NCBI RefSeq assembly: GCF_964355755.1
Contig: NC_092677.1
Span: 17,082,101-17,146,100 of the forward strand
Direction: 5' to 3'
DNA: 64,000 bases
Source: Antedon mediterranea
Lineage: Eukaryota; Echinodermata; Crinoidea; Comatulida; Antedonidae
A model generated the notes under the pieces. It made no database searches and was not told where the DNA came from. It saw only the letters and a program-made list of their open reading frames with translations. Every line of letters starts with the position of its first letter. The first letter of the stretch is position 1. The translations under genes and the position numbers were made by a program. Below, piece after piece: positions 17,723-43,900 of this stretch.

Positions 17723-20700
17723 TCAGTCTGGTATTTGTTTGCACACATTTTGCACTATTTTATTAAAGCTGTCTGGCTTATCAGCATACACATGATGACC
17801 AGCCCCCTGTACAATCTGCAAAAATAAAAAGTATTTGTTTTTTTTTTATTTTACTGAATGCCTATGAGTTGAAAGATTGGCTTGTTTATGTTGTATTCAA
17901 TGAGGCAAAGTGGAGAGATACAAAACATTCATCACAAAATTGTCTGCTTCAATTGGATGTCAAAGGCCATGTGCTCAGATATTGGCTATTGAGTAGAGCA
18001 GTAATACAGACGGCACTCTACAAGTTAGTATGCGGTCGTGCACTGAAAAAAAAACTGGCCGTGTAAAAGAATCATTGATTAGAACTTAGAACATTCAATT
18101 TAACCAAACGATGAGATACTAAATGAACCAATCAAATAGAGTTGGTGTCTTCACTACATATATACAGATATTTGTTGAAAGTTGAAGAAGTTGAAATGTA
18201 AGGACAATGTTGTACGTGGATGTAGTATATAATATAAGGGTTTAGAAAAGAATACTCAGCATAGTAGTACCCACCTTAATTGTGACCTGTGACTCGTTAC
18301 GTAGATTTTTAACAACTTGACCAATCTCGGAGTCCATCCAGGATTTCGAGCCATACAACATCGTTATTGGAACGCTTTTGTCGAGTTGTGTTATGCGTTG
18401 TATCATGGGATTCTGAGCAAAGGCGATTCGGCTCTGCAAAAACTTAAATGCTTCCTCTCCACTATATATATATATATAAAAAAAAATTTATTGAGCAGCT
18501 GCGTTGGGTGGGGAAGGAATTTATTACGTTTGGTGCTGCTATACACCTCAGTACTTTGAAGGGTGGTTATATTGTTTTCAAATGTTTAATTGATTTTCTA
18601 TGTTACTTCTATTCTAAATTAGTGTTATTTTTGCCAAGGTAGTTGGAGCAAGATGTAGCAGTGATGGAGGATTGGAGGAAAGTTATTACGTTTGGTGCTG
18701 CTATACACCTCAGTACTTTGAAGGGTGGTTATATTGTTTTCAAATGTTTAATTGATTTTCTATGTTACTTCTATTCTAAATTAGTGTTATTTTTGCCAAG
18801 GTAGTTGGAGCAAGATGTAGCAGTGATGGAGGATTGGAGGAAAGCCCTGGGGCAATTTAATACAAAGGGTGTATTTTAGTAAAAATTGTGTTTAAATGTA
18901 TTTTGGTATTTCTGAGTGCTAATGTGCTGCCTTGTAATCATCTTACTATAGAATATTAGGCAATGTATTCACCTTGGTCGTTGGGCATTGCAATGGTATA
19001 TGTACTTAGTTACTGTATTCTGACTGTCAACAGATGCAAACTTTCTATCAAGATCAGGTCTCATTCGGCTAACAAGGTATTGGCCTGCAAAGCAAATTGA
19101 AAATAATAGTATTATAACTATAGGTCCATGATGTATCTAATGTATTAAGTGTCAATTCAGTTTTGCACAGCATTTTTGAAATCTACTATTTTTCCTTCTA
19201 CCCATGTAATACCACTGATGATCAAAACAGCAGCAAATTGTTACAATCAACTAAATCCAGTACATGCACAGTGAACGAGCTGTTGAAGCCAGCTAAATGA
19301 ATGAATGTACCTTTAGGGCTTAGGCATACTTCATATGTAATGATTCCTAATTTGGAGGCCGTTATTAACTGTTGCTTGATGTATTAAACTATACACATTG
19401 CATGGCAACCTTTGAATTCCAAACTCTTACCAAATGGGCCAGCAGCACGCAATCCCGACAACGGGTTAAACGTCAATGCTAGTGTTCCAACTACTCGAAA
19501 CAACAACGAGTTTTGACGGGTATCCTCGTTCTCTTCATCTCGCTCTGGAAACCCCCATGGATCAACAGGCACCAAATGTTTTATGCGTTCTGGGTAGCGT
19601 ATCGCATATGCGTATGTAATGAATCCACCCAGACTGTGACCAATTAAAATCATTTTATCCAATCCGACCTCTTCTCTCCACTGCTCTATTGATCCCACAA
19701 ATTCTCTTTCCACATCTTCTGCATATGCTGGAAACTTTCGACGAGTGCTACGGCCAAAGCCTAACAGGTCAAATGCGTAAACCGGTCGCACATTTGAAAG
19801 AGCGTCTAGATTTTGCACCCACAATCCAATTGCACCAGCCATGCCATGGACAAGAACAATAGGTGTTAGGTCTTCTCTGCCGGTATTGTTCATATAAATT
19901 GTTCTAATTTTGTCACCATTTTTAGTTGTCACAAACCAAGTTTTGTATTTATTCTTCAAAACTGAAAGTAGGTAAATCAATCAAACAATTTAGATCAAAA
20001 GTATATGTAGTATTCTATGATTGCATGTTAAAATGTAATATACATATAAAGAAACATGTCTTTCTTGTTGGTTTTGCTGCTCCTTTTTACATAACTCTAT
20101 AACTATTTCGTTTTGTTTTTTTTATATATATCCCTACTTTTCAGACTGTTAGTCCTAATTTTTCACATGCAAGTGAGTGAGAAATTAAAATAATCTGCAT
20201 GCAGAAAATGTAATAAAAGCCAAATAAAAAGAAAATTTTAATTTTTCATTCACAATTTGAAATGTTGTTAATGAGGGTTTACTACTTGCTATAGCTCCAG
20301 GATTGTGATAAATCATAGTCTAAATGTCCAGTTGCTGTTTACGTATTATATATCTGAATGCTTGATGACTGCAATCATCCACGCAAAATGTACTTGCTTC
20401 TTCTAATTTTATTTATATATTTATATTTTTTATATTTTATATATATTTGTCCTCAAGCTTAACTGGAAACTGAGGAAATTCGGATTAGGCCCTCCACGGA
20501 CCCACGGCAGCCAGCAGTGCAGCGCCTACCATATCAGCACACCGGGAGACGATCCCCTACTCTTTTCGAATAGTGTACCAAGTTCTTTAACGTGCACTGT
20601 TAAGTACACGGGACCAACGGCTTTACATCCCATCCGAAGGATGAGGCAATGAGAGTAAAGCATCTTGCCTAAGGATGCAATTAGTATGGTACAGATAACC

Positions 20701-21814: not shown

Positions 21815-21980
21815 AATTCCGTTTGATGATGATACTAGCTGAGCTGACAGTTTTAAGAATTTTCTTCCAGTAATTTCTTCTATTATATAACCATTGTGAC
21901 GTAATCCTGACCCAGCATTTTTCGTGTTTACATTTTTCGCACACGTGACATTCATTCAATTTTTGCAGGTATATAAAATA
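21815..21980. promoter_or_regulatory. Left half of the split ABHD-B/VAP-2 promoter
   Basis: 166 bp between the ABHD copy B start and the left end of the inserted element. It continues in sense across to 40507-40938. An in-frame minus-strand open frame runs through it and could extend the ABHD N-terminus. Confidence 0.5.
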
Positions 21981-22014
21981 TACCAAATTGGCTAGTTGAG
22001 AATTCTCAACTATT
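21981..22014 (+). repeat. Left terminal inverted repeat, outer element
   Basis: It begins TACCAAATTGGCTAGTTGAG and contains GTTGAGAATTCTCAAC, itself a 16-bp palindrome. It pairs with 40473-40506. The ACCAAATTGG core also resembles the A-satellite hairpin centre. Confidence 0.85.
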
Positions 22015-23164
22015 ACCGCAGTACGCCTGTAACGACGAAGCCTACCGGTATAATGGAATAGGCTGATTTCCTTGTTAACTTAAGGGGTCATTTAATTACT
22101 GAATTATGATTGGTAGTAAAGGAAATTTACTGGAATCCTATTGGATGGTAAGGTGGTAGTAGGACCATGTCCATCCCATTGCAGTAATAAAGTTGAGCCA
22201 CCTGCGACCATTACAATGTCCTACCATGCTAATGTAGGAGTGGGGAAATGTTATGCTTACTACTGTTTCTTTTAATAATTTAGTACAATTAATAAGAATA
22301 AAGAATACACTTAAAGGGGGGTTCCGGGTTTAAAATGAATAGTAAAAAATGTAAAATATATTTGTTTGTCTCTTGAACGGTAAAAGTTTCAATTTATATA
22401 AGCGCCCAGTGAAGCAGAACGAAGGCTGTGAAATGAGGCCAGATTACAAGTGCAGCTACGGCTAAATCACACTGTGGTTACAGAATAGGAAATTCGTGAA
22501 ATGGTCAATCTTCCGACGATTCGTTATCATTAACCATATCAATTACTTTTGTAAAATTATACTTATCTGATGTAATTTTAGTCGGTCTTCCCATTTATAA
22601 AGTCAATTTTCTATGAAAATCCATCAAAACAGTGAAAAATTAGATAAGTTTGCACTTTACGTTTGCCGATTTTCGCACTGACTTAGGGAAAGCCTTCAAA
22701 ATCAATGAAGCGTAAGGTATACATTCCTGCTGAGCGAGGAGAGCGAGACGACGATACACGTGCTCTCTCTGGAGCTATATATCCAATACCAAATTGGCGA
22801 GTAAATCATGTTTTACTTTAAATTAAATTTATACGCTCTTCCACAAGGTCAATTGTTAGTTATACATACAGACTATATTAAAACAATGATTTTGAACACG
22901 TAGGGCATTTCTTTGAATTCTTTCCTATTGTCGTTTTGTGGTAATTTACAGCTTTTTATATGTTTAACAAACGTACATAATCAATTGCGTCTGCATCATG
23001 CTAGACTACAACTTCCGGTAGTGACGTAATCAGTATATTTTTGGTAATACTGTAAAACGTTTTCACTAAGCTAGAGAATCTTCTGATATCAATATTCATT
23101 AGACCGTACTTTAGTTAGCCAATCAAAATAAACGTATAAACAATTTTGCGGCGATGTTGTTGAG

Positions 23165-25239
23165 GTAAAATATACTGTGTTTTACAATAACCAATTTGGT
23201 TATGGTAAAGCACAATGATATAGAATAGGAAACATTTAATAATATGATAAATGACATTTACATAGCAATTTAGCACTGTGTTTTACTATAACCAATTTGG
23301 TTAGAGTAAAACACAATGATATAGAATAGGCAACATTTAATAATATGATAAATGACATTTACATAGCAATTTAGCACTGTGTTTTACTATAAACAATTTG
23401 GTTAAAGTAAAGCAGAATGATAAAGAATAGGAATTTAATAATATGATATATGACATTTACATAGCAATTTAGCACTGTGTTTTACTATAACCAATTTGGT
23501 TAGAGTAAAACACAATGATAAAGAATAGGAAACATTTAATAATATGATAAATGACATTCACATAGCAATTTAGCACTGTGTTTTACTATAACCAATTTGG
23601 TTAGAGTAAAACACAATGATATAGAATAGGAAACATTTAATAATTTGATAAATGACATTTACATAGCAATTTAGTGTGTTTTACTATAACCAATTTGGTT
23701 AAAGTAAAACACAATGATAAAGAATAGGAAACATTTAATAACATGATAAATGACATTTACATAGCAATTTAGCACTGTGTTTTACTATAACCAATTTGGT
23801 TAAAGTAAAACACAATGATAAAGAATAGGAAACACTTAATAATATGATAAATGACATTTACATAGCAATTTAGCACTGTGTTTTACTATAACCAATTTGG
23901 TTAGAGTAAAACACAATGATATAGAATAGGAAACATTTAATAATTTGATAAATGACATTTACATAGCAATTTAGTGTGTTTTACTATAACCAATTTGGTT
24001 AAAGTAAAACACAATGATAAAGAATAGGAAACATTTAATAACATGATAAATGACATTTACATAGCAATTTAGCACTGTGTTTTACTATAACCAATTTGGT
24101 TAAAGTAAAACACAATGATAAAGAATAGGAAACACTTAATAATATGATAAATGACATTTACATAGCAATTTAGCACTGTGTTTTACTATAACCAATTTGG
24201 TTAGAGTAAAACACAATGATAAAGAATAGGAAATATTTAATAATAATGATTATTTACATAGCAATTTAGCACTGTGTTTTACTATAACCAATTTGGTTAT
24301 AGTAAAACACAATGATATAGAATAGGAAACATTTAATAATATGATAAATGACATTTACATAGCAATTTATCACTGTGTTTTACTATAACCAATTTGGTTA
24401 GAGTAAAACACAATGATAAAAAATAGGAAACATTTAATAATAATGATTATTTACATAGCAATTTAGCACTGTGTTTTACTATAACCAATTTGGTTATAAT
24501 AAAACACAATGATAAAGAATAGGAAACATTTAATAATATGATATATGACATTCACATAGCAATTTAGCACTGTGTTTTACTATAACCAATTTGGTTATGG
24601 TAAAGCACAATGATATAGAATAGGAAACATTTAATAATTTGATAAATGACATTTACATAGCAATTTAGCACTGTGTTTTACTATAACCAATTTGGTTAAA
24701 GTAAAACACAATGATAAAGAATAGGAAACACTTAATAATATGATAAATGACATTTACATAGCAATTTAGCACTGTGTTTTACTATAACCAATTTGGTTAA
24801 AGTAAAGCAGAATGATAAAGAATAGGAATTTAATAATATGATATATGACATTTACATAGCAATTTAGCACTGTGTTTTACTATAACCAATTTGGTTAGAG
24901 TAAAACACAATGATAAAGAATAGGAAATATTTAATAATAATGATTATTTACATAGCAATTTAGCACTGTGTTTTACTATAACCAATTTGGTTAAAGTAAA
25001 ACATAATGATAAAGAATAGGAAACATTTAATAATATGATAAATGACATTTACATAGCAATTTATCACTGTGTTTTACTATAACCAATTTGGTTATGGTAA
25101 AGCACAATGATATAGAATAGGAAACATTTAATAATATGATAAATGACATTTACATAGCAATTTAGCACTGTGTTTTACTATAACCAATTTGGTTAAAGTA
25201 AAACATAATGATAAAGAATAGGAAACATTTAATAATATG
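23165..25239 (+). repeat. A satellite array, ~101-bp hairpin unit, ~20 copies
   Basis: The unit is a hairpin, GTGTTTTACTATAACCAATT and its inverse TTGGTTAGAGTAAAACAC, followed by AATGATAAAGAATAGGAAAC and a ~45-bp AT-rich spacer ending CATAGCAATTTAGCA. The period is 98-102 bp. Point variants are shared between non-adjacent units, implying multi-unit duplication. There are no spacers, so it is not a CRISPR array. Confidence 0.95.
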
Positions 25240-26124
25240 TATATCAAAATCTATCAAATATCTAGGTATTGAGATTGACCAAAATGTATCAGGTGACGTC
25301 ATTGCCCGCTCTGTTATAAACAAAGCAAACGGCAGACTGAAATTTCTGTACCGACAATCATCATTTCTTAATTCGCATTGTCGCAAAATTCTTAGTTTTG
25401 CTTTAATCCAACCGATGTTCGATTATTCGGTTTGCTCATGGTCTTCTACGGTAAATAAAAATTTAAAATCAAAATTACAAACGACTCAAAACAAAATGGT
25501 TCGTTTTATAAAAAAGTTAGGTCCCCGATCTCATGTTGGTCAATCTCAGCTAAACGACGTTGGTATGTTAAAAGTCCAAGACCGTGTCGAATTTCTTAGA
25601 GTCTGTCATGTTTTTAAAATATATAATCATTGTTGTCCACCTTATTTATGCAATCGTTTTATTAGAATTTCAGACAGTCATAATTACAATACTAGGGGAT
25701 GCAATTTTAATTTTAGAATCCCAACTATCAAGCCAATGGCACATGTGACCTTTTTTTACAATGCTATTAAAGAATGGAATAATTTACCAATTAACATTAA
25801 GGAATCACAAACTGTTTGTTGTTTTAAAAGTAAAGTTAAAAAGTATCTACAGGAACGTTCACTAGCTCTAGAAACTATTTAATTAGCGCTTCTTCTTTTT
25901 TCGATTGTCCTTTTTGCTGTTTTTTGTCATTTTTATTATGTTGCTTTGTTTGTCTTTTTTGCTGTTCTTTCAAAGGACCTCATTGGAAACAAGTCCGTAG
26001 AGGACTTTTATGAGTTATCCTTGGCATCCTTGTTTTATATTGGTATTTTTATCTTTGTCAATTTTAATTGTATGTCTGTGATATTTTATGTACTGATGCC
26101 GAAATAAATCAAATCAAATCAAAT
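25240..26124 (+). mobile_element. 5'-truncated non-LTR retrotransposon (LINE) in the A array
   Basis: The frame up to 25882 encodes the C-terminal end of a LINE reverse-transcriptase polyprotein: KYLGIEIDQN, FDYSVCSWSS, LQTTQNKMVRF, then EWNNLPINIKES, and stop. This is the thumb/C-terminal layout of CR1/L2/Jockey-type elements. About 240 bp of 3' UTR follows, ending in an (AAATC)n-like tail at 26107-26124. The insertion replaces about 13 bp of one satellite unit. The catalytic YxDD region is missing, so it is dead. The open frame from 25208 starts in satellite DNA and is a chance fusion. Confidence 0.88.
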
Positions 26125-27000
26125 ACATAGCAATTTATCACTGTGTTTTACTATAACCAATTTGGTTATGGTAAAGCACAATGATATAGAATAGGAAACA
26201 TTTAATAATAATGATTATTTACATAGCAATTTAGCACCATGTTTTACTATAACCAATTTGGTTATGGTAAAGCACAATGATATAGAATAGGAAACATTTA
26301 ATAATAATGATAAATGTCATTACATAGCAATTTAGCACTGTGTTTTACTATAACCAATTTGGTTAGAGTAAAACACAATGACAAAGAATAGGAAACATTT
26401 AATAATAATGATTATTTACATAGCTAGCAATTTAGCACAATGTTTTACTATAACCAATTTGGTTATGGTAAAGCACAATGATATAGAATAGGAAACATTT
26501 AATAATATGATAAATGTCATTACATAGCAATTTAGCACTGTGTTTTACTATAACCAATTTGGTTAGAGTAAAACACAATGATAAAGAATAGGAAACATTT
26601 AATAACATGATAAATGACATTCACATAGAAATTTAGCACTGTGTTTTACTATAACCAATTTGATTAGAGTAAAGCACAATGATAAAGAATATGAAACATT
26701 TAATAATATGATAAATGACATTTACATAGTAATTTATCACTGTGTTTTACTATAACCAATTTGGTTAGAGTAAAACATTTTAACTATGATAAATGATATT
26801 TAGCACTGTGCTGGATACAGTAAAACACAAATTAAGAATAGGAAACATATAATAATATGATACATTTACATACAAATTTAGTATTGTGTTTTACTATAGC
26901 CAATTTGGTTACAGTAAAACACAATGATAATGAAACATTTATTATATGATATTATTTACATAGCAAAATATTATATTAAACATATCTTATTATCTAAACG
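26125..27000 (+). repeat. A satellite array, distal part, progressively degenerate
   Basis: The same ~101-bp unit resumes after the LINE. It stays good to about 26790 and then degrades (shortened units, lost hairpin arms) toward 27000. Confidence 0.9.
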
Positions 27001-27112
27001 TTATGAAAAGAATAGGATACATATAATGTAATAATATAATAAATACAAGTTACATAGTTTATCATCTTGTTTTACAGAACCAATTTGGTGACACAGTTAA
27101 ACACAGTGATAA

Positions 27113-28800
27113 AGAATAGATACTGTTTTAGGTTATATAACCCTAACCCTAGTTTGAAGCGACATAATAAATTCATCGCGAAAAAGTACGTATCGTATTT
27201 AGAAACTTTTGAAATTTGTTAGATATGTTTAATAGGTTCTTACGTCTATAAAACAAACAAAAAATATAAATTTCACAAAAAATTCGTGATTTTAATAATT
27301 TGCATTTCTAAAAATGTACACTTATGAAATACCATACATTTTCCAACACATTTTTACTTCATTGATGATTCCCAGAAATCAAAATAAAACAAATTATGAT
27401 ATTTCTTTTACATTATAGATGTAAGAACCTATATTGAACATGTACCAAATTTCAAACGTTTTTTAAGACGATACGTATTTTTATCGATGAATTAAGTATG
27501 TGATCGCTTCAAACTAGGGTTAGGGTTAAATAACCTAACAGTTCATTCTTTAACACTGTGTTTAACTTTTAACCAAATTGGTTTTAGTACAACACAATGA
27601 TAAACTATGTACATTTTATTTTTCATATTACATTATAGGATACATATAATGTAATAATAATAAATACAAGTTACATAGTTTATCATCTTGTTTTACAGAA
27701 CCAATTTGGTTACACAGTTAAACACAATGATAAAGAATAGACACTGTTTTAGGTTATATAACTCTAACCCTAGTTTGAAGCGATCACATACTTAATTCAT
27801 CGCGAAAAAATACGTATCGTATTCAGAAACATTTGAAATTTGGTAAATATGTTCAATAGGTTCTTACGTCTATAAAACAAACAAAAAATAAAAGTTTCAA
27901 GACAAATTCGTGATTTTAATAATTTGCATTTCTAAACATTTACACTTATGAAAGACAATACATTTCCAACACATTTTTACTTCATTGATGATTCTCAGAA
28001 ATCAAAATAAAACTATTAGGATATTTCTTTTGCATTATAGATGTAAGAACCTATATTGAACATATCTACCAAATATCAAACGTTTTTCAAGACGATACGT
28101 ATTTTTAGCGATGAATATTAAATATGTGATCGCTTCAAACTAGGGTTAGGGTTAAATAAACTAAAACAGTTCTATTCTTTATCACTCACTGTGTTTAACT
28201 TTTAACCAAAATGGTTATAGTAAAACACAATGATAAACTTATATGTCAATTTTATTTTTCATAACATAAAATGTTTGATATTCTTTATAATATTTAATAT
28301 TATATTTTAGGCCTACTATTAATGACGTATAAATGCACACTACATCTGAAATAACTTTCTACTTCATTGGCGATTCTTACCAAAAAAAAGAACTAATTTT
28401 GTTATGTATATAGAGCAACCTATTATAACATGTCTTGTATGATTTTTATCTCGTTTCAATGACATTTTATACTACAATTCAAATGAAAAAGCATCACAAA
28501 AAAATACGTCTGGTATTCAAAAAGTTTCTAAACTCGGTACACAGAAAAAAGGAAATGTTGAAAATGTATGGTCTTTCATAAGTGTGAATTTTTTGAAATG
28601 CAAATAATGGAAATCATCGATTTGTCTTGAAATTTATAATTTGTTTTGTCTTATTGAACATATCTATACAAAATGTCAAACGTTTCTGAATACGATAAGT
28701 TTTTTTTCTCGATGAATTTATAATGTCGCTTCAAACTAGAGGGTAGGGTAGTAACCTAACAAGTAGGCCTATCTATTCTTTATCACTATGTTTAACTGTG
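27113..28800. repeat. ~615-bp foldback repeats carrying telomere-like words (3 copies)
   Basis: Copy 1 has a left arm from about 27121 (TTTTAGGTTATATAACCCTA) and an inverted right arm to about 27545 (AGGGTTAGGGTTAAATAACC), with ~140-bp arms around a ~150-bp centre. Copy 2 repeats the plan from about 27735 to 28165, a period near 615 bp. Copy 3 (about 28490-28760) is diverged. CCCTAACCCT at the left and AGGGTTAGGG at the right sit at matching points of the arms. Copies are joined by the ACCAATTTGGT hairpin and the GATAAAGAATAG word of the A satellite. Confidence 0.85.
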
Positions 28801-29183
28801 TAACCATATTGGTTCTAATAAAAAACAATGATAAACTATGTAAATTGTATGTTTCATATATTACATTTTTGCCAAAAAAAATTATTGGGAATGTCAAATT
28901 TCTTTTTCATGACATATATATCTACAAATTTCAGAAGCTTTTGAGTACGAGTATTTTACGCGATGTTTTTTTATCCTCATTTTAATATTTTGGTAATGTA
29001 ATTCACATAAAGTTTTGTATCCAAAAATTGTTTATTCTTGGGTAGAAATGAGGAAATAAATAGTATTCCTGTATAATATAATAATCAATAATAAAGTATA
29101 AAAAAAAGTGTTGTGTAAACGAACGTTTTTTACGCTTCGAATTTTCTGTTACATTATGTTTGAATTGAAGCTACAGATATTGA

Positions 29184-29222
29184 ATCATGGACCTATAAAT
29201 TAGTAATTTATAGGTCCATGAT
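29184..29222. repeat. 39-bp perfect palindrome
   Basis: Two 19-bp arms with a single G between them; the left arm is ATCATGGACCTATAAATTA. The outer part, ATAGGTCCATGAT, also occurs at 16381-16393 and 19124-19136, so the arm end may be the terminus of a small element. Confidence 0.9.
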
Positions 29223-29499
29223 TGAACATATCGTCACTCACCACACATTTTTTGTTTTGTATTTCGAAAGTATTTATTCTAAAGAACAATTGATGCAAAC
29301 ATCAACTGCGTATCTTATTTCATTAATTAATTATATTAATTATAATTTGGCGATTATTCGTCACACGAAGAGTCGAATATCGATTCGTCTCGTCATGGGA
29401 AGAAAACGTGCATTGCGCACACTGTTTGCGCGCCTCAACAATAAACGGCGAATATGCGATTCGTCACTTATGGAACGCCGTTTTACACAAGTTTTTGGC

Positions 29500-29712
29500 G
29501 ATGATAAAAATTGCGTCGATGATGAAATTGCGTCGATGAAAATTGCATCGACGCAATGTAGATTGCGTCGATGCAATGTAGATTGCGTCGACGCAATTTA
29601 CATTGCGTCGATGAAAATTGCATCGATGAAAATTGCGTCGATGAAAATTGCGTCGATGAAAACTGCATCGATGAAAATTGCGTCGATGAAAACTGCATCG
29701 ATGAAAATTGAT
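29500..29712 (+). repeat. Short tandem repeat based on ATTGCGTCGATGAAA
   Basis: About 12-14 variants of a 15-bp unit (ATTGCGTCGATGAAA, with GCATCGACGCAATG variants), unusually rich in CpG and TCGA for this AT-rich region. It makes open frames in several phases (IASMKIASMK), which are by-products. Confidence 0.88.
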
Positions 29713-30126
29713 GTGATGAATTTAATTGATTATGAAAATTCCAAATGGTTTTAATTCAATCAATGATGAAAATGACTACTAGTAAAGTAAATGATGATGT
29801 TAATAATGATGTTAATAATGTTATTATGTTGCTAAAAATTGACGGTTTCTGAATATTTTGATATGATAAACATGTTTACCGCTTGCGCTAGCGCGCGTTA
29901 TAGACAAGCGCACAGTGATCGCGCACTAAAACAATGTTGAAATATATGCACTGATTAACATTTTAGTGATTTATTGTCAACACATTTTAGCAATGGATCC
30001 ATTATTGTCCTTTCGGACACATTATATCTTCTAGCTAATTGCTTCCGTTAATCCACCAGTTCAGTACATAAAATCCAGATGTCCAGCATCCATGACATCA
30101 TATTCAAATCATACCGGCAGGGAGAT

Positions 30127-30376
30127 CGCAATTTTCATCGATGAAAACTGCATCGATGAAAATTATTTTTTATTTCATCGATGCAGTTTTCATCGATGCA
30201 GTTTTCATCGACGCAATTTTCATCGACGCAATTTTCATCACATTAACGCAATTTTCATTACATCGACGCAATTTTCATCGACGCAATGTTCATCACATCA
30301 TTACATCAATACTATATTCATCGACGCAATTTTCATCACATCGACGCAATTTTCATTGCATCATCGACGCGATTTT
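30127..30376 (-). repeat. Inverted partner of the ATTGCGTCGATGAAA repeat
   Basis: Units read TTTTCATCGACGCAA and TTTTCATCGATGCAG on the plus strand, the complement of 29500-29712. The two blocks face each other across about 415 bp (29713-30126) at the core of the inner element. Confidence 0.88.
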
Positions 30377-30744
30377 ATCATCGCCTAAACTGGCATTCCA
30401 TACTAATTGCGTGTGTGATCTGATTGGTGTATTATAAATAAATTCATCGCGATGAATTTTTCAGTAGATGTAATGAGACAGTTCAGTAGATGTAATGACA
30501 GTTAATTTAATTGTTCTGTTCTTTTTGTACAAATCTATACTACTTTATATTATGGATTTTGTAGTACTGTTAAAATTATTAAATCTCTGGAAGTGTGTTT
30601 TACGAGTATGTCCGCAAATTTATGCGTTTACGGTTTTAAAATGTGAGTTTTAAATAGCGAACATGATCTTGTTAGGTGCACTACGCACGCAGTATTCCAA
30701 AATGTCTTACTAATTGGGAGAAAATCATATTGTATCATATCATA

Positions 30745-32145
30745 TTATATCCATTCTTTAAATTCATATTCTTTATCCAAAACTAAATTGGTATAGTAAT
30801 TGCTAGCAATTTATCATATTAAATGTTTCATATTCTTTATCATTGTGTTTTACTCTAATCAAATTGGTATAGTAAAACACAGTGCTAAATTGCTATGTGA
30901 ATGTCATTTATCATATTTTTAAATGTTTCCTATTCTTTATCATTGTGCTTTACCATAACCAAATTGGTTATAGTAAAACACAGTGCTAAATTGCTATGTA
31001 AATGTTATATATCATATTATTAAATTCCTATTCTTTATCATTGTGTTTTACTCTAACCAAATTGGTTATAGTAAAACACAGTGATAAATTGCTATGTAAA
31101 TGCAATTTATCATATTATTAAATGTTTCCTATTCTTTATCATTGTGTTTTACTCTAACCAAATTGGTTATAGTAAAACACAGTGATAAATTGCTATGTAA
31201 ATGTAATTTATCATGTTATTAAATGTTTCCTATTCTTTATCGTTGAGTTTTACTCTAATCAAATTGGTTATAGTAAAACACAGTGCTAAATTGCTATGTA
31301 AATGTTATATATCATATTATTAAATGTTTCCTATTCTTTATCATTGTGTTTTACTCTAATCTGATTGGTTATAGTAAAACACAGTGCTAAATTGCTATGT
31401 GAATGTCATTTATCATGTTATTAAATGTTTCCTATTCTTTATCATTGTGCTTTACTCTAACCAAATTGGTTATAGTAAAACACAGTGCTAAATTGCTATG
31501 TAAATGTCATTTATCATGTTATTAAATGTTTCTTATTCTTTATCATTGTGTTTTACTCTAACCAAATTGGTTATAGTAAAACACAGTGATAAATTGCTAT
31601 GTAAATGTAATTTATCATATTATTAAATGTTTCCTATTCTTTATCATTGTGTTTTACTCTAACCAAATTGGTTATAGTAAAACACAGTGCTAAATTGCTA
31701 TGTAAATGTTATATATCATATTATTAAATGTTTCCTATTCTTTATCATTGTGTTTTACTCTAATCTGATTGGTTATAGTAAAACACAGTGATAAATTGCT
31801 ATGTAAATGTCATTTATCATATTATTAAATGTTTCCTATTTTTTATCATTGTGTTTTATTCTAACCAAATTGGTTATAGTAAAACACAGTGCTAAATTGC
31901 TAAATGTCATTTATCATGTTATTAAATGTTTCTTATTCTTTATCATTGTGTTTTACTCTAACCAAATTGGTTATAGTAAAACACAGTGCTAAATTGCTAT
32001 GTAAATGTAATTTATCATATTATTAAATGTTTCCTATTCTTTATCATTTTGTTTTACTCTAAATTGGTTATAATTTATTTAATTTCATTTCAAAAGACAT
32101 TTACCTAAATTGCTATTTAATTATAGTAAAACACTGTGCTAAATT
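30745..32145 (-). repeat. A' satellite array (inverted A), ~13 copies
   Basis: Units are the reverse complement of array A: CCTATTCTTTATCATTGTGT, then the hairpin TTTTACTCTAACCAAATTGG and its inverse, then CTAAATTGCTATGTAAATG. Period ~101 bp. Arrays A and A' are the inverted arms of the inner element. Confidence 0.95.
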
Positions 32146-33538
32146 GCTATTGTATTAAGGACGAGTTCCGAGAAGATGTATTCAAAGCTACAACCAATCA
32201 GAACAGTGTTAATCAATATAGTCCATGGCTACAGCCAATCAGAAACGTCCAAATCGCAATAACCCCTAGGCTAATAGAAATTATTGGTCCGAGTAGCCTT
32301 TTCAACCAGACGTTGCGAGGTTTAAAAAGTAAAACATGATTTACTCGCCAGTTTGGTATAGTTTATATACCTGCTCTCTGCCCTGCCTGGCATCGTCACG
32401 TGATAAGCAGATACAGTATACAATATTAAACTGGTCGGGTCGAGTATACCCCGTCTATAATCACAACATGAACGATGTACAGTATTTGATTGAAGGTCGA
32501 CTCAACCTACCGGAATGGTATAGATAATATAGCTCGAATGAGAGAGTTGGAATATTTGTAAACATAAGTACAGTATTGCTAATTTTAACAAGTGTAGCCT
32601 AGCCTAAGTAAAAGGCCTGGTAGTATCAATTCGCATAGGGTCTACTACACTAGCTAGCTCAATTTTTAACTGGGCCGGATCGGCTAGGCTAGGCTAGGTC
32701 TCCTTCCTACTACCGGTGTACTTGCTTGATGCAGTATCCGCTTTTTTGGAGAGTAAACTAGGCCTACTTATTCGATCGGGACACCATACGGACCTTGTTT
32801 TGCCTCAATATTTACAGCCGATTTTTGTAGAACGTTTTAGGTTTAGATTGTTTAGGAGTTTGGTTGATAGGATGGGTGTGGAATCCACTGAGTTTTGTTA
32901 TTTATGGGCCAATCGTTTAGTAATAGGCTAGCTAGGCCCATGAATGATGGCCCCAATGTTTTAACGTAGCCATCGTGGCATGGAATCCCTAGTCAGAAAT
33001 GGCTCTCACCCCGGCATGAATAAAATGATTTAGGCTAGGCCTAGCCTAGTACGTGAAGCCGATATACGATCTGTACTACAGTATTATTATTAATTCGAGG
33101 TATAAAAATAGTATAATTTATGACTCCGTAATCTGTACTAAATTTTGTATTTCATTAAATGTCAAATAAATATATGCTACTACTGTTATTATTACACTTT
33201 AGGCCTAGCTTAGCAAATCTACAAAAAATGTATTTCACAATGATCGGGTGGTCGTCGTTTGACAGAGGAGAGAGAACACAACGTACAAGCTTGACGTCGC
33301 GAGTTTGGAATCCACTGACTGATGACGTGATTTTGTGAATATCTCATGAATATTAATGAGCTTCCCTAAGCTGCTGAAATACAGATTTTCCATGAATTTA
33401 CCCTAAAATGTATATGAAATTTAATTTTTTTAATTTCTCGTTATTACTTCTTCATTCTGACATGTCTATATTGTTATAATATTTTTTATTTAATAAATAA
33501 ACGATATTTAAAAGCAATTTTAAACCCAGAATCCCCCT
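32146..33538. other. Right end region of the inner element
   Basis: Unique AT-rich DNA rich in TAGGCCTAG words. It holds the inverted counterpart of the left end near 22800 (32327-32360) and the right terminal repeat. Small open frames here match no family I recognise. Confidence 0.5.
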
Positions 33539-33542
33539 TTAA

Positions 33543-35205
33543 CAATATACAACAAATAACATTAATGTACGATGTAGTTTAACACTGTTCTCAACTATAG
33601 TCATTTTGGTATACTACTTGAGCACATTGATAAAGAATAGGATAAACTTAACAATATAGGCTACAACAAATAACATTAATGTACGATCCCGTTTAACACT
33701 GTTCTCAACTATAGTCATTTTGGTATACTTGAGCACAGTGATAAAGAATAGGATAAACTTAACAATATACAACAACAATGTACGATCCCGTTTAACACTG
33801 TTCTCAACTATAGTCATTTTGGTATACTTGAGCACAGTGATAAAGAATAGGATAAACTTAACAATATACAACAAAAAACATTAATGTACGATCCAGTTTA
33901 ACACTGTTCTCAACTATACTCATTTTGGTATACTTGAGAACAGTTATAAAGAATAGGATAAACTTAACAATATACAACAAAAAACATTAATGTACGATCC
34001 AGTTTAACACTGTTCTCAACTAGAGTCATTTTGGTATACTTGAGAACAGTGATAAAGAATAGGATAAACTTAACAATATACAACAAAAAACATTAATGTA
34101 CGATCCCGTTTAACACTGTTCTCAACTATAGTCATTTTGGTATACTTGAGCACAGTGATAAAGAATAGGATAAACTTAATAATATACAACAAATAACATT
34201 AATGTACGATCCAGTTTACCACTGTTCTCAACTATAGTCATTTTGGTATACTTGAGCACAGTGATAAAGAATAGGATAAACTTAAAAATATACAACAAAA
34301 AACATTAATGTACGATCCAGTTTAACACTGTTCTCACTATAGTCATTTTGGTATACTTGAGCACAGTGATAAAGAATAGGATAAACTTAAAAATATACAA
34401 CAAAAAACATTAATGTACGATCCAGTTTAACACTGTTCTCAACTATAGTTATTTTGGTATACTTGAGAACAGTGATAAAGAATAGGATAAACTTAACAAT
34501 ATATACAACAAAAAACATTAATGTACGATCCAGTTTAACACTGTTCTCAACTATAGTCATTTTGGTATACTTGAGCACAGTGATAAAGAATATGATAAAC
34601 TTTAAAATATACAACAAAAAACATTAATGTACGATCCAGTTTAACACTGTTCTCAACTATAGTTATTTTGGTATACTTGAGAACAGTGATAAAGAATAGG
34701 ATAAACTTAACAATATACAACAAAAAACGTACATTAATGTACGATCCTGTTTAACACTGTTCTCGACTATAGTCATTTTGGTATACTTGAGCACAGTGAT
34801 AAAGAATAGGATAAACTTAACAATATACAACAAAAAACATTAATGTACGATCCCGTTTAACACTGTTCTCAACTATAGTCATTTTGGTATACTTGAGCAC
34901 AGTGATAAAGAATAGGATAAACTTAATAATATACAACAAATAACATTAATGTACGATCCAGTTTACCACTGTTCTCAACTATAGTCATTGTGGTATACTT
35001 GAGCACAGTGATAAAGAATAGGATAAACTGAACAATATACAACAAAAAACATTAATGTACGATCCCGTTTACCACTGTTCTCAACTATAGTCATTTTGGT
35101 ATACTTGAGCACAATATACAACAAATAACATTAATGTACACGATTCTGTTTAACACTGTTCTCAACTATAGTCATTTTCATATACTTGAGCACAGTGATA
35201 ATATG
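33543..35205 (+). repeat. B satellite array, ~106-bp hairpin unit, ~16 copies
   Basis: The unit is AGTGATAAAGAATAGGATAA, a spacer ACAATATACAACAAAAAACA, TTAATGTACGATCC, and the imperfect hairpin ACTGTTCTCAACTATAGTCA / TTTTGGTATACTTGAGCACA. Period is 99-111 bp, mostly 106. The first unit is the one interrupted at TTAA by the inner element. Confidence 0.95.
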
Positions 35206-35214
35206 AAAAACATA

Positions 35215-36120
35215 ATAACACTATAATATTTGTAGATGAATGACGCGGACACGTACATGTTCATAAGTAATTGATATAAATTGACTTTTAAAAGTGGAAT
35301 TAACACAAATGATTGTAGATAAATATGACGTGAATTGCACGTACATAATGTTGATGAGTAGTATATTTATATAAATCGACTTTGAAAAGTGAAATAACAC
35401 TAATATTTGTAGATGAATATGACGTGGACACGTACATATATTGATTAGTATATTGATATAAATCGACTTTTAAAAGTCAAATTAACACTAATATTTGTAG
35501 ATGAATATGACTTGGACACGATTTACATATGTTGATGAGTATATTGATATAAATCGACTTTTAAAAGTGAAATAACACTAATATTTGTAGATGAATATGA
35601 CGTGGACACGTACGGTACATAATGTTGATGAGTATATTGATATAAATCGACTTTTAAAAGTGAAATAACACTATTGATTGTAGATGAATATGACGTGGAC
35701 AAGTACATTTATTGATGAGTATATTGATATAAATCGACTTTTAAAATTGAAATAACCCTATTAGTTGTACACTATTAATCATATATGAATATGACGTGAA
35801 TTGCACGTACATATGTTGATGAGTAGGCCTATATTGATATAATTGACTTCGAAAAGTGAAATAACACTGATTTGTAAATGAATATGACGTGGACAAGTAC
35901 ATTTATTGATGAGTATATTGATAAATCGACTTTTAAAAGTGAAATAACACTAATATTTATAGATGAATATGACGTGGACACATACATATGTTGATGAGTA
36001 TATTGATATAAATCGACTTTTAAAAGAGGAATTAACACTATTGATTGTAGACGTGAATTGCACGTACATATGTTGATGAGTGTATTGATATAAATCGACT
36101 AAACGTTAAATAACACTATC
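35215..36120 (+). repeat. C satellite, ~90-bp unit, ~10 copies; degenerate to ~36560
   Basis: The unit contains TTTGTAGATGAATATGACGT, GGACACGTACATA, TTGATGAGTATATTGATATA and ATCGACTTTTAAAAGTGAAA. Period is 88-93 bp. It fills the centre between B and B'. More decayed units continue past a Penelope-like fragment to about 36560. Confidence 0.9.
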
Positions 36121-36300
36121 TTGTACAAGTACCCTCACTTGCACTGATGAAGGGCTAGTGTTGCCCGAAAACTCTGCTAACTTTTCTGGCTGTTTTACTT
36201 TATCGTTTTGATTTAGCTTTTCGCTTCTTTTTTTGTATCTCCATTGAGACCACAGCATTGTTATTATTTCAGTATTTTGCCTTTGGATTTACTAATATTA
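36120..36300 (+). mobile_element. Penelope-type 3' fragment with hammerhead-like core
   Basis: CTGATGA (36144-36150) is followed by AGGGC-TAGTGTT-GCCC, able to form a stem-loop, and GAAA (36167-36170). This is the order of hammerhead ribozyme core boxes (CUGAUGA, stem II, GAAA). Such motifs are known in Penelope-like retroelements. Stems I and III are not clear, and one extra A lies before stem II. The TTAGCTTTTCGCTTCTTTTT tail and interrupted C satellite suggest an inserted fragment. Confidence 0.45.
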
Positions 36301-36789
36301 AAAGTGAAATAACACTAATGACTGTAGATGATATGACATTTATGTTGATGTACGGTATATATTTTTGTATATAATATGCACACGTACATACGTTGATAGG
36401 TATTGATATAAATAGATTTTTAAAAGTACGGTAATAGACACTTTATTTGTAGATGAATACGACATGGACAAGTTGCAATAAATTCTATCGTTATATCGTA
36501 TGTTGATGAGTATTGATATAAATCGACTTTTTTAAAGTGGAATAACACTAAAATGTATAGATGGATATGGCCTCAACAAGTATTGTATTAAGCGGTACTG
36601 TATATTGATAGACTTCATACCTGTAATGTCAATGAAATCTGGCAACAAGAATTGTGTTTGATCCTCCTAATAGTATTCTAATAATCTTGGTTTGTAAAGG
36701 AGGCATGAAAAATCTAAACGCATAGCCAGGGGAGGGGTTGGAGTTTCGAACAAACTTCCCTGTGCCCGTCCTACGGTTTTTGTGAACTT

Positions 36790-36890
36790 TTTAGTAGCGT
36801 GCAAACGCGACTCTACAGCTCACTATGTCGATCGGTCGGTCGGTAAACACCAACTCAAATTTGAGCACGCGACTGCAGCCATGTATAGGC
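36790..36890 (-). repeat. Dispersed repeat, copy 1 (inverted partner at 43677-43770)
   Basis: Contains CAGCTCACTATGTCGATCGG and CTCAAATTTGAGCACGCGAC. The copy at 43677-43770 is its reverse complement with few differences. Confidence 0.75.
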
Positions 36891-36984
36891 CTATGGCCTG
36901 TTTATACTAGAAATCAGCAGTGAAAGTATATGTAAATAATATGTGTTAATATAGAATTAGTTTTTTTTATTTAATAAATAGTAT

Positions 36985-39900
36985 TAAAGTTGATCTTATT
37001 CTTTATCTGTGATTAATTATACTCAAATGACTATAGTTTAAAACAGTATTAAACGGCATCTTACATTAATGTTATTTGCTGTTTATTCGAAGTTTATCCT
37101 ATTCTTTATCACTGTGCTCAAATATACCAAAATGACTATAGTTGAGAACAGTGTTAAACTGGATCGTACATTAATGTTATTTGTTGTATATTATTAAGTT
37201 TATCCTATCCTTTATCACTGTGCTCAAGTATACCAAAATGACTATAGTCGAGAACAGTGTTAAACTGGATCGTACATTAATGTTATTTGTTGTATATTGT
37301 TAAGTTTATCCTATTCTTTATCACTGTGCTCAAGTATACCAAAATGACTATAGTTTAGAACAGGGTTAAACTGGATCGTACATTAATGTTATTTGTTGTA
37401 TATTGTTAAGTTTATCCTATTCTTTATCACTGTGCTCAAGTATACCAAAATGACTATAGTCGAGAACAGTGTTAAACGGGATCATACATTAATGTTATTT
37501 GTTGTATAATGTTAAGTTTATCCTATTCTTTATCACTGTTCTCAAGTATCCAAAATGACTATAGTTGAGAACAGTGTTAAACTGGATCGTACATTAATGC
37601 TATTTGTTGTATATTGTTAAGTTTATCCTATTCTTTATCACTGTGCTCAAGTATACCAAAATGACTATAGTCGAGAACAGTGTTAAACGGGATCGTACAT
37701 TAATGTTATTTGTTGTATATTGTTAAGTTTATCCTATTCTTTATCACTGTGCTCAAGTATACCAAAATGACTAGTCGAGAACAGTGTTAAACGGGATCGT
37801 ACATTAATGTACGTTTTTTGTTGTATATTGTTAAGTTTATCCTATTCTTTATCACTGTTCTCAAGTATACCAAAATGACTATAGTTGAGAACAGTGTTAA
37901 ACTGGATCGTACATTAATGTTTTTTGTTGTATATTGTTAAGTTTATCCTATTCTTTATCACTGTTCTCAAGTATACCAAAATGACTATAGTTGAGAACAG
38001 TGTTAAACTGGATCGTACATTAATGTTTTTTGTTGTATATTTTTAAGTTTATCCTATTCTTTATCACTGTGCTCAAGTATACCAAAATGACTATAGTTGA
38101 GAACAGTGTTAAACTGGATCGTACATTAATGTTTTTTGTTGTATATTGTTAAGTTTATCCTATTCTTTATCACTGTTCTCAAGTATACCAAAATGACTAT
38201 AGTTGAGAACAGTGTTAAACTGGATCGTACATTAATGCTATTTGTTGTATATTATTAAGTTTATCCTATTCTTTATCACTGTGCTTAAGTATACCAAAAT
38301 GACTATAGTTTAGAACAGTGTTAAACGGGATCGTACATTAATGTTTTTTGTTGTATATTATTAAGTTTATCCTATTCTTTATCACTGTGCTCAAGTATAC
38401 CAAAATGACTGTAGTCGAGAACAGTGTTAAACGGGATCATACCTTAATGCTATTTGTTGTATATTATTAAGTTTATCCTATTCTTTATCACTGTGCTTAA
38501 GTATACCAAAATGACTATAGTTGAGAACAGTGTTAATCTGGATCGTACATTAATGTTATTTGTTGTATATTATTAAGTTTATCCTATTCTTTATCACTGT
38601 GCTCAAGTATACCAAAATGACTATAGTTGAGAACAGTGGTAAACTGGATCGTACATTAATGCTATTTGTTGTATATTATTAAGTTTATCCTATTCTTTAT
38701 CACTGTGCTCAAGTATACCAAAATGACTATAGTCGAGAACAGTGTTAAACGGGATCGTACATTAATGTACGTTTTTTGTTGTATATTGTTAAGTTTATCC
38801 TATTCTTTATCACTGTTCTCAAGTATACCAAAATGACTATAGTTGAGAACAGTGTTAAACTGGATCGTACATTAATGTTTTTTGTTGTATATTGTTAAGT
38901 TTATCCTATTCTTTATCACTGTTCTCAAGTATACCAAAATGACTATAGTTGAGAACAGTGTTAAACTGGATCGTACATTAATGTTTTTTGTTGTATATTT
39001 TTAAGTTTATCCTATTCTTTATCACTGTGCTCAAGTATACCAAAATGAATATAGTTGAGAACAGTGTTAAACTGAATCGTACATTAATGTTTTTTGTTGT
39101 ATATTGTTAAGTTTATCCTATTCTTTATCACTGTTCTCAAGTATACCAAAATGACTATAGTTGAGAACAGTGTTAAACTGGATCGTACATTAATGCTATT
39201 TGTTGTATATTATTAAGTTTATCCTATTCTTTATCACTGTGCCTAAGTATACCAAAATGACTATAGTTGAGAACAGTGTTAAACGGGATCGTACATTAAT
39301 GTTTTTTGTTGTATATTATTAAGTTTATCCTATTCTTTATCACTGTGCTCAAGTATACCAAAATGACTATAGTCGAGAACAGTGTTAAACGGGATCATAC
39401 CTTAATGCTATTTGTTGTATATTATTAAGTTTATCCTATTCTTTATCACTGTGCTTAAGTATACCAAAATGACTATAGTTGAGAACAGTGTTAATCTGGA
39501 TCGTACATTAATGTTATTTGTTGTATATTATTAAGTTTATCCTATTCTTTATCACTGTGCTCAAGTATACCAAAATGACTATAGTTGAGAACAGTGGTAA
39601 ACTGGATCGTACATTAATGCTATTTGTTGTATATTATTAAGTTTATCCTATTCTTTATGACTGTGCTCAAGTATACCAAAATGACTATAGTTGAGAACAG
39701 TGTTAAACGGAATCGTACATTAATGTTATATGTTGTATATTGTTAAGTTTATCCTATTCTTTATCACTGTGCTCAAGTATACCAAAATGACTATAGTTGA
39801 GAACAGTGTTTAACTACATCGTACATTAATGTTATGTGTTGTATATTGTTAAGTTTATCCTATTCTTTATCACTGTGCTCAAGTATACCAAAATGACTAT

Positions 39901-40150
39901 AGTTGAGAACAGTGTTAAACGGGATCATACATTAATTTTATTTGTTGTATAATGTTAAGTTTATCCTATTCTTTATCACTGTTCTCAAGTATCCAAAATG
40001 ACTATAGTTGAGAACAGTGTTAAACTGGATCGTACATTAATGCTATTTGTTGTATATTGTTAAGTTTATCCTATTCTTTATCACTGTGCTCAAGTATACC
40101 AAAATGACTATAGTCGAGAACAGTGGTAAACTGGATCGTACATTAATTTT
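36985..40150 (-). repeat. B' satellite array (inverted B), ~30 copies
   Basis: Units read TATCCTATTCTTTATCACTG, TGCTCAAGTATACCAAAATG, ACTATAGTTGAGAACAGTG, TTAAACTGGATCGTACATTA. This is the reverse complement of B with the same ~106-bp period. Blocks of several units recur within it (37690-38640 resembles 38640-39660), indicating higher-order duplication of about 0.95 kb. Confidence 0.95.
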
Positions 40151-40472
40151 ATCCTTTGCTTTACTGTGCTTTGATTTGATAAGCAAGTTTGGTTGCCCCG
40201 CCTCCATATGCTGCCTACTAAATTAGGATTCCCTAGCTTTTCTATAAAAATTGAAGTACCCACAATGCACGTTATACGGAAGTCATAGTCTTGTAAAATA
40301 CAGACACAATAGTTTTTATCGTATTGTTTTCATTTAAATATCACTAAGATTGTCTTAAACTACAAACAACTAAAATTAGTGAAGGTATGCAAGTGTTTCT
40401 AAATATTTATTACTGGTAGTATTAATACAATTTGGATTATATCATTTTCCAGAAAGGTAGAAAAAAACATAA

Positions 40473-40506
40473 AATAGTTGAGAATTCTCAACTAGCCAGG
40501 ATGGTA
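40473..40506 (-). repeat. Right terminal inverted repeat, outer element
   Basis: Plus-strand AGAATTCTCAACTAGCCAGG then ATGGTA. It is the inverse of the left end, with three mismatches over about 31 bp. TTCTCAACTA followed by GGTATA parallels the B-satellite unit. Confidence 0.85.
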
Positions 40507-40938
40507 TAGGAAATATAGCTCATTTTTGATAACCTTTTTACGAAAGCCCATTAGTGACACCATGTGACATTGAATTGTGTTCCTCGATTGGGCACTTGGG
40601 AATTTTCACATAAATTAGTCTGTAAATCAAGTCATTTAGATTATTTATTTTATTTATTTCCCGATGTCTTATTATAACTGAAAAATGATATAATATTTTA
40701 TATTGGAAACTACGGTTTTAATATTATATTTTGTAGGAAAAGTTAAAATTTTGAGCAGCGCCCTCAATTTTCAAAACTAAAGCCTCGATTTCAACCGTGC
40801 TCTGGCGCTGATGTCCGCGACGACAACTCACTGACTGTGTGGTCAACCAAAATTTGTCACTAACATTTAAATTAATATTAATTTGTAAAAGTTTAATCAA
40901 TTGAATAAAAAAATCTATAGCACTGAGCAAATAAAGAA
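40507..40938. promoter_or_regulatory. Right half of the split ABHD-B/VAP-2 promoter; VAP-2 5' region
   Basis: 432 bp from the element's right end to the VAP-2 start. GCCTCGATTTCAAC at 40782-40795 is shared with the VAP-1 upstream region (10298-10311), and AGCGCCCTC nearby parallels CAGCGCCTC there. This marks the conserved proximal promoter or 5' UTR. Confidence 0.6.
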
Positions 40939-43900
40939 ATGTCTAAAGTACCAGAGACATTGCTGGTAATTTCTCCACCGACGGAATTAAGATTTAGAGG
41001 TAAGTTTTATTCACATGTTAGGCAGGCCTAGCTGCTAGCTAGGCCGGATCCTACCACCACGTCAGATAAATGGTTCTGCCCACCTAGCTAGCCACCTCAT
41101 TTACAGGCAAGCTAGCCCTCTGTCCTCAGGCCTAAGTAGTAATACACAGGGGAGGGGATCTGGTGTATTAAATTTACATGTGATATAATAATAAGAGATA
41201 AGCAGGTAGGCCTAGGGCCTATATATTATAGGCCTGCTAGACTTATTTATGATTGTTTATAGACCACTAATCTACATTCCTCCTATTTTAATAATATAGC
41301 CGAATAGGCCTAATAAAGTAATTGTAGTGTAGGCTAGTGGGGAACCCTCTGTTGTTGTTGTTGTTGTACTGGGATCCGTTGTACTGTACTACTAGGCTAT
41401 CATTTACTGTACAATAAATTGTCAATTTGAATTGTGAATTGGTTTAACCTATAGACCTACTACTACTAGGGGCCTAGTACTAACTAATTGCTACATACTA
41501 CTAGTACTACCTAGGCATACACCTCTTTAAATTTAATAAGAATAGTTTTTATTTTAATTTGTAGAAAGAAACATTTACAGTAATTTATTGAGCAAAATAC
41601 AAGACATTTTTTTTCAGGTCCATTCACAGATGTGGTAATATCGGAATTACATTTGAAGAACCCAACAGAAAATAAAATATGTTTTAAAATCAAGACAACT
41701 GCTCCTAGGAGGTACTGTGTTAGGCCTAACAGTGGTGTGTTGGGGGCTGGAGAGGATATAACGGTCAATGGTAAGAAGTGTTAAAATGCATTCAGTTTGA
41801 AAATGGAATCTTTCTGGTCATGTTATCTGTCTCGTGCTTGATCTCACAAACTTTTTCAATTCATTTTGAAATATTAAATTTATTTTCACATTCTACTAAC
41901 CTTGGTAACACAATATAATATTAATTATACAGTACTGTATAACAGATCTGTCAAAGGGGTGTGGTAGGGAGGGAGTGGGTGGGTGGGGGTGTTTCTTGAA
42001 ATCAGAGCTTGAGGTGAATGTGCCATGAAAATGAAACTACTGTAAGTTCAAACTGACCTTTATACTGTAGATGATGCAATTTTGTATCACAGAAATGTTT
42101 TCCTTGCATGCTTTAATATCAATTTGCATCCATTACTGTATGTTGTTTACTGTACAGTACATCCAATGTTGCATTCTAGTAAGATACTGTTATTACAGTT
42201 TAATTCAGCATTCTGGAAACTTTTATTTTGGTTTTTTTTTACAATTTCTCAAGCCACCCTGTGACCCAAAAAAAAAAGTTTTGCGGACCAAATTTAGGCT
42301 GCGGTCTAATATACCTTTCACATTGCCTTACAAACTCCAGAGTTTACACACACCAAATTAAACCATACAAACACTGGTGTTGACAACCCAATGTGTGTAA
42401 ACTCTGGTTTTGCTAGACATTTTAAGAGGGGTATAGTTATAGGCTGTGTCAGGTAACATGCAATGGTATTTTGTTAATCTGAAATTAAACTGTAATGCAT
42501 TTATGGTTTATTATCTGATATAAGCCAATTCATTTGGAGGGAAAACGTATTCGCTCAATTTAAACTCTCACGAAAAACTAAAAAAAGGAATGGCAATATT
42601 AGAATTTAGCTGTCAACACCAACAAACCCCAATAAAACAAAAATGAAGTGCTTTGCTTTGTACTATACATCCACAATGTATTTCTAGGCTGTGCCTCCAA
42701 AAAAACATGGCTACTGTATATTCTCTCAACATTTTATTATGGTATTATGGAGTGTTTGCATTCATTTTCACATATATTTATCATGATATCCAATATCTAA
42801 AGTAATCCATATTTATTGTACAATAATTTCCACAAGCATTGATCGAATATCAACATTGTCGCATTATAAACCATTGACTACTGTAACCTTAGTAAAGTTC
42901 TTTTTTGATCTTCTTAAGATGCATTCAAAATTCGATAAGCATTTGAAAATACTGTAATTAAAATCAGAGAACAGTATTGTGTACAGCATTTGTACTGTAC
43001 TAGTTAAACCCAGATTTCAGTTTTTCTAAGTTGGTTGTAATAAATTCTTTATTTCATTGTTTGTTTTTTTTACCTCTGTCTACAGTAGTATATATTTTAA
43101 CTTTAAAAAGATTTTTACTTTTGTATTCTTCCAAAAGTGAAAAATATCTTGTATGGTAGTCGTGTAATTGGGAAATTTAGAAAGGAAAACAACTCATCTT
43201 CTACCTCACAATTTTTATTCTGTAGAACCTATCCATTCACACTTGTTTGTTTCTTTTAAAAATGGAAATTTTTCTTATGATTTTTCATTATTTAACAAAA
43301 TGATGCCGTCTTTTGTGTAAATATAGCTTACAATTAGTGACTGATGGCTTAAGAGGACTTGAAGTACTTGTATTGTGTCATCATAATCATTTAGAAAATT
43401 GGCATCGTAATAATGTATGTCTTTGTGTAAGAAATTGTACAGTGATGCAATTGTTTCGTTATTTATTCCTCCTGTTGCCAAATAAAAAAAAAAATTATAT
43501 TTGTTTTTCAGTGATGTTACAACCATTTGAATATGATCCCCAAGAAAAGAACAAACACAAGTTTATGGTACAAGCCATGACAGCGCCCCCAGGAGAATTT
43601 GACCAAGAAGCAGTTGTAAGTATTAGGTTTATTTAAACTAAAAAATGAAGTGACCATTTTTTTAGAAACAAGGCCATATACATGGCTGCAGTTGCATGCT
43701 CAAATTTGAGTTAGTGTTGACCAACCGACATAGTGAGCTGTGAGTCGCATTTGCACGCGACTAAAATCCTTTTTTCAAAGTGTAATTGATTTGGCAAGTG
43801 TTTTGATCAGATAATCAGCAGATGTAACTCCTCAAACTCCTTTGCTGTTTATATGTGAGCAGTGGGAGTAGCTCACTGACAAGGTGTTTACTTGTGACCA

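Follow-up and report, generated by a model that had tools for sequence, protein, structure and literature searches.

Nested insertion of a foldback-like transposon between the genes of a duplicated divergent pair in Antedon mediterranea

Galileo is a transposon of the P superfamily in Drosophila which generates duplications of 7 bp, sometimes 8 bp, and is present as two subfamilies in one genome (PMC4168063). Its arms contain tandem arrays as well as insertions of foreign transposons, and the element is highly variable in length (PMC4168063). In addition, the arm repeats harbour extra binding sites for the transposase (PMC3688188). The targets of P, 1360 and Galileo are palindromic. A second foldback element, Tetris of Drosophila virilis, is non-autonomous; the tandem repeats of its arms share sequence with the arm ends, and no autonomous partner was found (PMC4079207). 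Tetris has duplications of 8-10 bp and 220-bp repeats, and its authors placed it in Mutator because of the duplication length (PMC4079207).

The DNA analysed here (the window) is a stretch of 64,000 bp, positions 17,082,101-17,146,100 of contig NC_092677.1, which was compared with a genome of 354 Mb in 18 contigs. The exon structure of the window is that of an animal-type genome. It contains a divergent gene pair duplicated in tandem, with an alpha/beta hydrolase gene (ABHD; PF00561) on the minus strand and, head to head with it, a VAP gene (MSP domain PF00635; VAPA and VAPB as best solved relatives) on the plus strand. The exons of pair 1 and pair 2 share about 70-95 % DNA identity, the introns do not align, and the first exons of the paralogs have a common length class and common splice donors. 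The paralogy of the pairs proposed in the original prediction is thus borne out by the matching exons and the head-to-head order of both pairs. The interval between the start codons measures 598 bp (9910-10507) in pair 1 as against about 19.1 kb in pair 2, in agreement with the 599 and 19,125 bp reported before.

VAP exon 2 (10728-10901 vs 41601-41775) and exon 3 (11632-11745 vs 43506-43622) are 87 and 95 % identical between the paralogs, and this similarity against a background of unalignable introns may reflect either strong constraint or gene conversion. Other features of the window are a perfect tandem duplication of 162 bp adjoining an ABHD-B exon (18521-18844) and a GC-rich array of 38 copies of the 17-bp unit GGGGACACCCCTATTCA (53387-54032). 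The latter is flanked by exon-like frames which by eye resemble short-chain dehydrogenases/reductases.

Table 1 Positions in the window of the start codons, the shared upstream word and the parts of the nested insertion
Feature	Position	Strand	Remarks
ABHD copy A start codon	9907-9909	-	exon 1 donor GATAA/GTATGT
GCCTCGATTTCAAC, pair-1 promoter	10298-10311	+	210 bp before VAP-1 ATG
GCCTCGATTTCAAC inverted copy, pair-1 promoter	10385-10398	-	one mismatch
VAP-1 start codon	10508-10510	+	exon 1 end ...TTTAAAG/GTAAGT; MSP domain PF00635, VAPA/VAPB matches
ABHD copy B start codon	21812-21814	-	
Left target duplication of A	21959-21965	+	ATTTTTG, 7 bp
Outer element, type A, with nested insertions	21966-40521	+	18,556 bp; ends common to dozens of copies
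Left terminal domain of A	21966-22314	+	about 350 bp, ending at TTAA
Left TTAA of middle element	22311-22314	+	single TTAA here in 12 other A copies
Middle TTAA-target element	22315-33538	.	AGGGGG(G)TTC... inverted ends; split by C; own sequence about 1.6 kb
Left target duplication of C	22765-22771	+	CTCTCTG, 7 bp
Inner element, type C	22772-32373	-	9,602 bp; inverted relative to A
101-bp tandem array, one arm of C	23174-25239	+	
101-bp tandem array, same arm of C	26124-26774	+	past ORF-bearing interruption
101-bp tandem array, opposite arm of C	30817-32062	-	inverted
Right target duplication of C	32374-32380	+	CTCTCTG, 7 bp
Right TTAA of middle element	33539-33542	+	
106-bp tandem array, left arm of A	33539-35113	+	
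Central domain of A	35224-36118	+	87-bp repeats
106-bp tandem array, right arm of A	36987-40152	-	inverted
Right terminal domain of A	40153-40521	+	
Right target duplication of A	40522-40528	+	ATTTTTG, 7 bp
GCCTCGATTTCAAC, pair-2 promoter	40782-40795	+	157 bp before VAP-2 ATG
VAP-2 start codon	40939-40941	+	VAP matches (VAPA/VAPB)

The large distance in pair 2 is caused by an insertion whose outer element, designated type A, extends from 21966 (CAGGTATATAAAATATACC) to 40521 (GGTATAGGAAATATAGCTC), as observed directly by comparison of copies throughout the genome. For each of its two ends about 40 genome matches were scored (97-100 % identity); they start at about 21966 and end at about 40521, which is 15 bp outside the inverted words TACCA and TGGTA (21981-40506) that had been proposed as the ends. 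The 15 bp beyond TACCA are common to at least 26 other copies and those beyond TGGTA to at least 28, and directly outside of them the 7-bp target duplication can be read on both sides. Positions 14-49 of the two ends form inverted terminal repeats with 33 of 36 identical bases, a value reached in 0 of 300 shuffles. Removal of A together with one duplication leaves 151 + 410 = 561 bp between the start codons of pair 2. The 37 bp missing from the 598 bp of pair 1 correspond to 15 + 15 + 7 bp, namely both element ends and one duplication, which were wrongly kept in the earlier sum. Restoration of 599 bp can no longer be maintained, and once the ends are corrected the spacing disagrees with that of pair 1 by 37 bp instead of lending the boundaries independent support.

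The interval consists of three levels: a 7.3-kb A element with inverted arms of 106-bp arrays, a TTAA-target element within it, and within the latter an inverted 9.6-kb element of type C with 101-bp arrays. Without the TTAA insert and one TTAA, A has a length of 7,328 bp. Its two 106-bp arrays are inverted and 94-97 % complementary, and a matching layout in sibling copies marks A as foldback-like. The siblings examined, mostly about 3-7 kb long, begin with a left domain of some 350 bp and end with a right domain of some 370 bp; in between, the 106-bp array and its inverted counterpart enclose a centre. A sibling structure of about 6 kb lacks the nest. Compared to them, the window copy possesses an additional 11.2 kb between two TTAA, and the uninterrupted site with a single TTAA was observed in 12 siblings. 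Forty of 423 candidate matches to the left end of the TTAA block were scored; this end occurs at dozens of sites with 94-100 % identity, and among those scored the junction between A and the block is spanned in the window only. Because this junction was seen in the window alone, the nest arose in the window copy or in a private lineage, and the order of A first and the nest later rests on the uniqueness of the nested junction to the window copy.

The middle element, with its TTAA duplication and inverted ends, resembles elements of the piggyBac or Kolobok type but differs in having about 1.6 kb of own sequence in which no coding sequence was recognised. The ends of type C (CAGGTATATAAACTATACCAAACTGGCGAGT) are related to those of type A, and about 30 copies share its core at 98-100 % identity. 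A 226-aa open frame (25202-25882), which by eye resembles the C-terminus of a line-element reverse transcriptase protein, interrupts the 101-bp array of C; neither Pfam nor NCBIfam gave a match to it, and no Pfam match was obtained for the ORF at 29164-29754. A sequence resembling a right end, TGGTATAGATAATATAGCTC, is located at 32516-32535 in the right part of the TTAA block and is perhaps an older related remnant.

The youth of the insertion is visible in its terminal sequences, where 1 + 1 substitutions in 340 + 360 bp separate the window copy of A from the majority of the 26-29 other copies. Since it deviates from the family majority at 2 of 700 bases, the insertion is considered young, and it may be polymorphic. 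It cannot be said to be tolerated, as had been proposed, because it is very young and known from a single assembly.

Left ends of types A and C were found 123 times genome-wide with at most two mismatches, and the reversed pattern used as control was not found at all. Nineteen copies including that in the window are bordered by 7-bp duplications which lie at unrelated sites, differ from site to site and are identical on both sides. These target sites show a weak symmetric Y-R preference 3 bp beyond the duplication, with a pyrimidine at -3 and a purine at +9 in 17 of 19 cases each. The dispersed copies, the inverted ends and the constant 7-bp duplications together demonstrate cut-and-paste integration. 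The motif TATACCAAA..TAGTTGAGAA of the left end is found again in the consensus 106-bp unit (score 32, 0 of 300 shuffles); the right end shows no significant similarity to this unit (47 of 300 shuffles). Furthermore, comparison in reverse orientation shows the 106-bp and 101-bp units to be related.

At five places (C1:15791968, C2:14556323, C2:40622803, C7:4710389 and C7:26553421), two of which have exactly one 7-bp spacer, right ends of the family face each other tail to tail at a distance of 7-21 bp. Among the paired family ends no left-left pairs were found, and a target preference beside the family's own right end is possible. The tail-to-tail pairs recall the head-to-head double insertions of P elements; the literature on double insertions and on promoter splitting yielded nothing specific. 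At C11:2788600 a right end is followed by a left end after the 7-bp spacer CTTTAGG, which represents tandem copies with one target duplication in common. The left flank of the copy at C10:15662640 reads CCACATT-CAGGCTC-CAGGTATA, with seven bases (CAGG+CTC) between duplication and element, possibly a remnant or the footprint of a near-complete deletion. The A copy at C7:7439694-7443230 has no matching 7-bp duplication and was possibly rearranged between copies.

None of the A copies read, including the four longest, contains a transposase. These four consist of arrays and further nested DNA, one of them with frames that appear line-element-like by eye. Since no copy read encodes a transposase, family A is taken as non-autonomous. 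Loci for P-type transposases above the Pfam cut-off are present in the genome of A. mediterranea; a search of these loci for A/C ends found none, and no P-type transposase (THAP, RNase H-like) was found between the family ends CAGGTATATA...ATATAGCTC. One P-type element of the genome generates 7- and 8-bp duplications, and its ends (CAAAGATCTTAT) are unlike those of family A.

The A/C family shares with Galileo the foldback-like long inverted arms with tandem repeats, the 7-bp duplications, variable lengths, nested transposons, the existence of two subfamilies and a terminal motif repeated within the arrays, here judged by the motif similarity of the left end. It differs in the length of the array units (101-106 bp), in that the A/C copies read carry arrays, whereas in D. 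willistoni they occur in one copy only, and in a weaker target motif; moreover, no transposase was found in or linked to the A/C family. Like Tetris, family A is non-autonomous, has arm repeats that share sequence with the ends and has no autonomous partner that was found, but 7-bp duplications and 101-106-bp units stand against the 8-10 bp and 220 bp of Tetris. By analogy, the family likely works like Galileo, and it is reasonable to regard the arrays as putative repeated binding sites of a transposase.

The upstream regions of both pairs have the word GCCTCGATTTCAAC in common. It is present at 10298 and 40782, far above chance and as originally noted, with just these two occurrences in the whole 354-Mb genome, one per promoter. 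Its 12-base core occurs 25 times genome-wide, three times in these two promoters, the third occurrence being the inverted near-copy of pair 1. The proposed alignment of 9910-10507 with the joined flanks of pair 2 revealed no homology above shuffles beyond GCCTCGATTTCAAC (local score 31, equalled or beaten by 10-12 of 300 shuffles), and overall promoter alignment was dropped as evidence since its score does not exceed shuffles. The missing alignment says little because the introns of the two pairs also fail to align. The interval of about 600 bp is plausible as a putative shared bidirectional promoter.

How the interval arose can be explained in several ways. The original prediction of a single 18.5-kb element bounded by TACCA...TGGTA, the excision of which gives exactly 599 bp, is favoured by the fact that these words lie within the real inverted ends and that with those coordinates the flanks do sum to 598 bp. 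It is very improbable: it is refuted by the dozens of copies that run 15 bp past both proposed ends and by the 7-bp duplications found at the outer ends, and in addition the corrected spacing is 561 bp and three nested elements occupy the interval. What survives of it is the mobile insertion of about 18.5 kb between the genes in the upstream region of pair 2; the single element has to be replaced by three. A satellite-like local expansion of the intergenic region without transposition, which the large 101-bp and 106-bp tandem arrays might suggest, has a negligible probability and is refuted by the dispersed copies and their duplications: the whole structure including its ends recurs at unrelated sites with 7-bp duplications, and the sibling arrays keep their arms and order. 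With more than 100 related ends at unrelated sites and 19 copies with 7-bp duplications, the interval is also a dispersed transposon and no ancestral syntenic segment, as had been anticipated.

Concerning the history of the promoters, the pattern of GCCTCGATTTCAAC speaks either for a common origin of both or for a binding site that they share. Two non-homologous promoters, with the 14-mer as a convergent binding site, would account for the lack of alignable homology apart from the word, and the inverted near-copy in pair 1 points to a motif with a function. However, we consider this unlikely, since the genes on both sides are paralogous in identical head-to-head order, GCCTCGATTTCAAC is unique to the two promoters and, with the insert removed, has similar distances to the ABHD start codons (388 bp in pair 1, 404 bp in pair 2), and a loss of alignment is expected where the introns cannot be aligned either. 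As to the mobilising enzyme, a transposase of the P superfamily (Galileo-like) is probable by analogy, with the family as a candidate member of that superfamily. That the family belongs instead to Mutator/foldback, to hAT or to an undescribed superfamily is less probable but quite possible, given that no coding partner was found and that the family ends are unlike those of the P-type element read. Against it stand the 7-bp duplications of the 19 readable copies, as in Galileo (PMC4168063), among which no Mutator-type duplication of 8-10 bp, as found in the Mutator-assigned Tetris, was observed, and the weak symmetric Y-R preference, which fits palindromic targets such as those of P, 1360 and Galileo.

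It is very probable that a non-autonomous foldback-like cut-and-paste transposon, A, recently inserted into the upstream region of ABHD-B and VAP-2 and was then nested by the TTAA element and C. A inserted at a distance of 151 bp from the start codon of ABHD-B and thereby duplicated ATTTTTG. It would have been moved by a transposase provided in trans, probably a Galileo-like one of the P superfamily, which may bind the terminal motifs recurring in the arrays. A TTAA-target transposon would have entered A, followed by C, which would have entered the TTAA element in inverted orientation, giving the 18.6 kb. At the insertion point GCCTCGATTTCAAC stays on the VAP-2 side and ABHD-B keeps 151 bp of native upstream sequence; ABHD-B would thereby be cut off from a promoter core on the VAP-2 side. 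In a wider interpretation, A and C would be the two young subfamilies of a foldback-like family of P-superfamily type outside Drosophila, which prefers to land tail to tail beside its own right end, and the window insertion would be a variant still segregating, by which a duplicated bidirectional promoter is uncoupled. This interpretation is tentative and rather unlikely to hold as a whole.

Insertion of a foldback-like transposon into a promoter is biology of a known kind, and the case of pair 2 illustrates that a convincing arithmetic match can arise from ends misplaced by 15 bp. For the A/C family, which is young and apparently undescribed, exact ends, the target duplication and a nest of known relative order are now available. 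Furthermore, the locus offers a natural test, in which two divergent genes have been pulled 19 kb apart and the compact paralogous pair next door serves as control.
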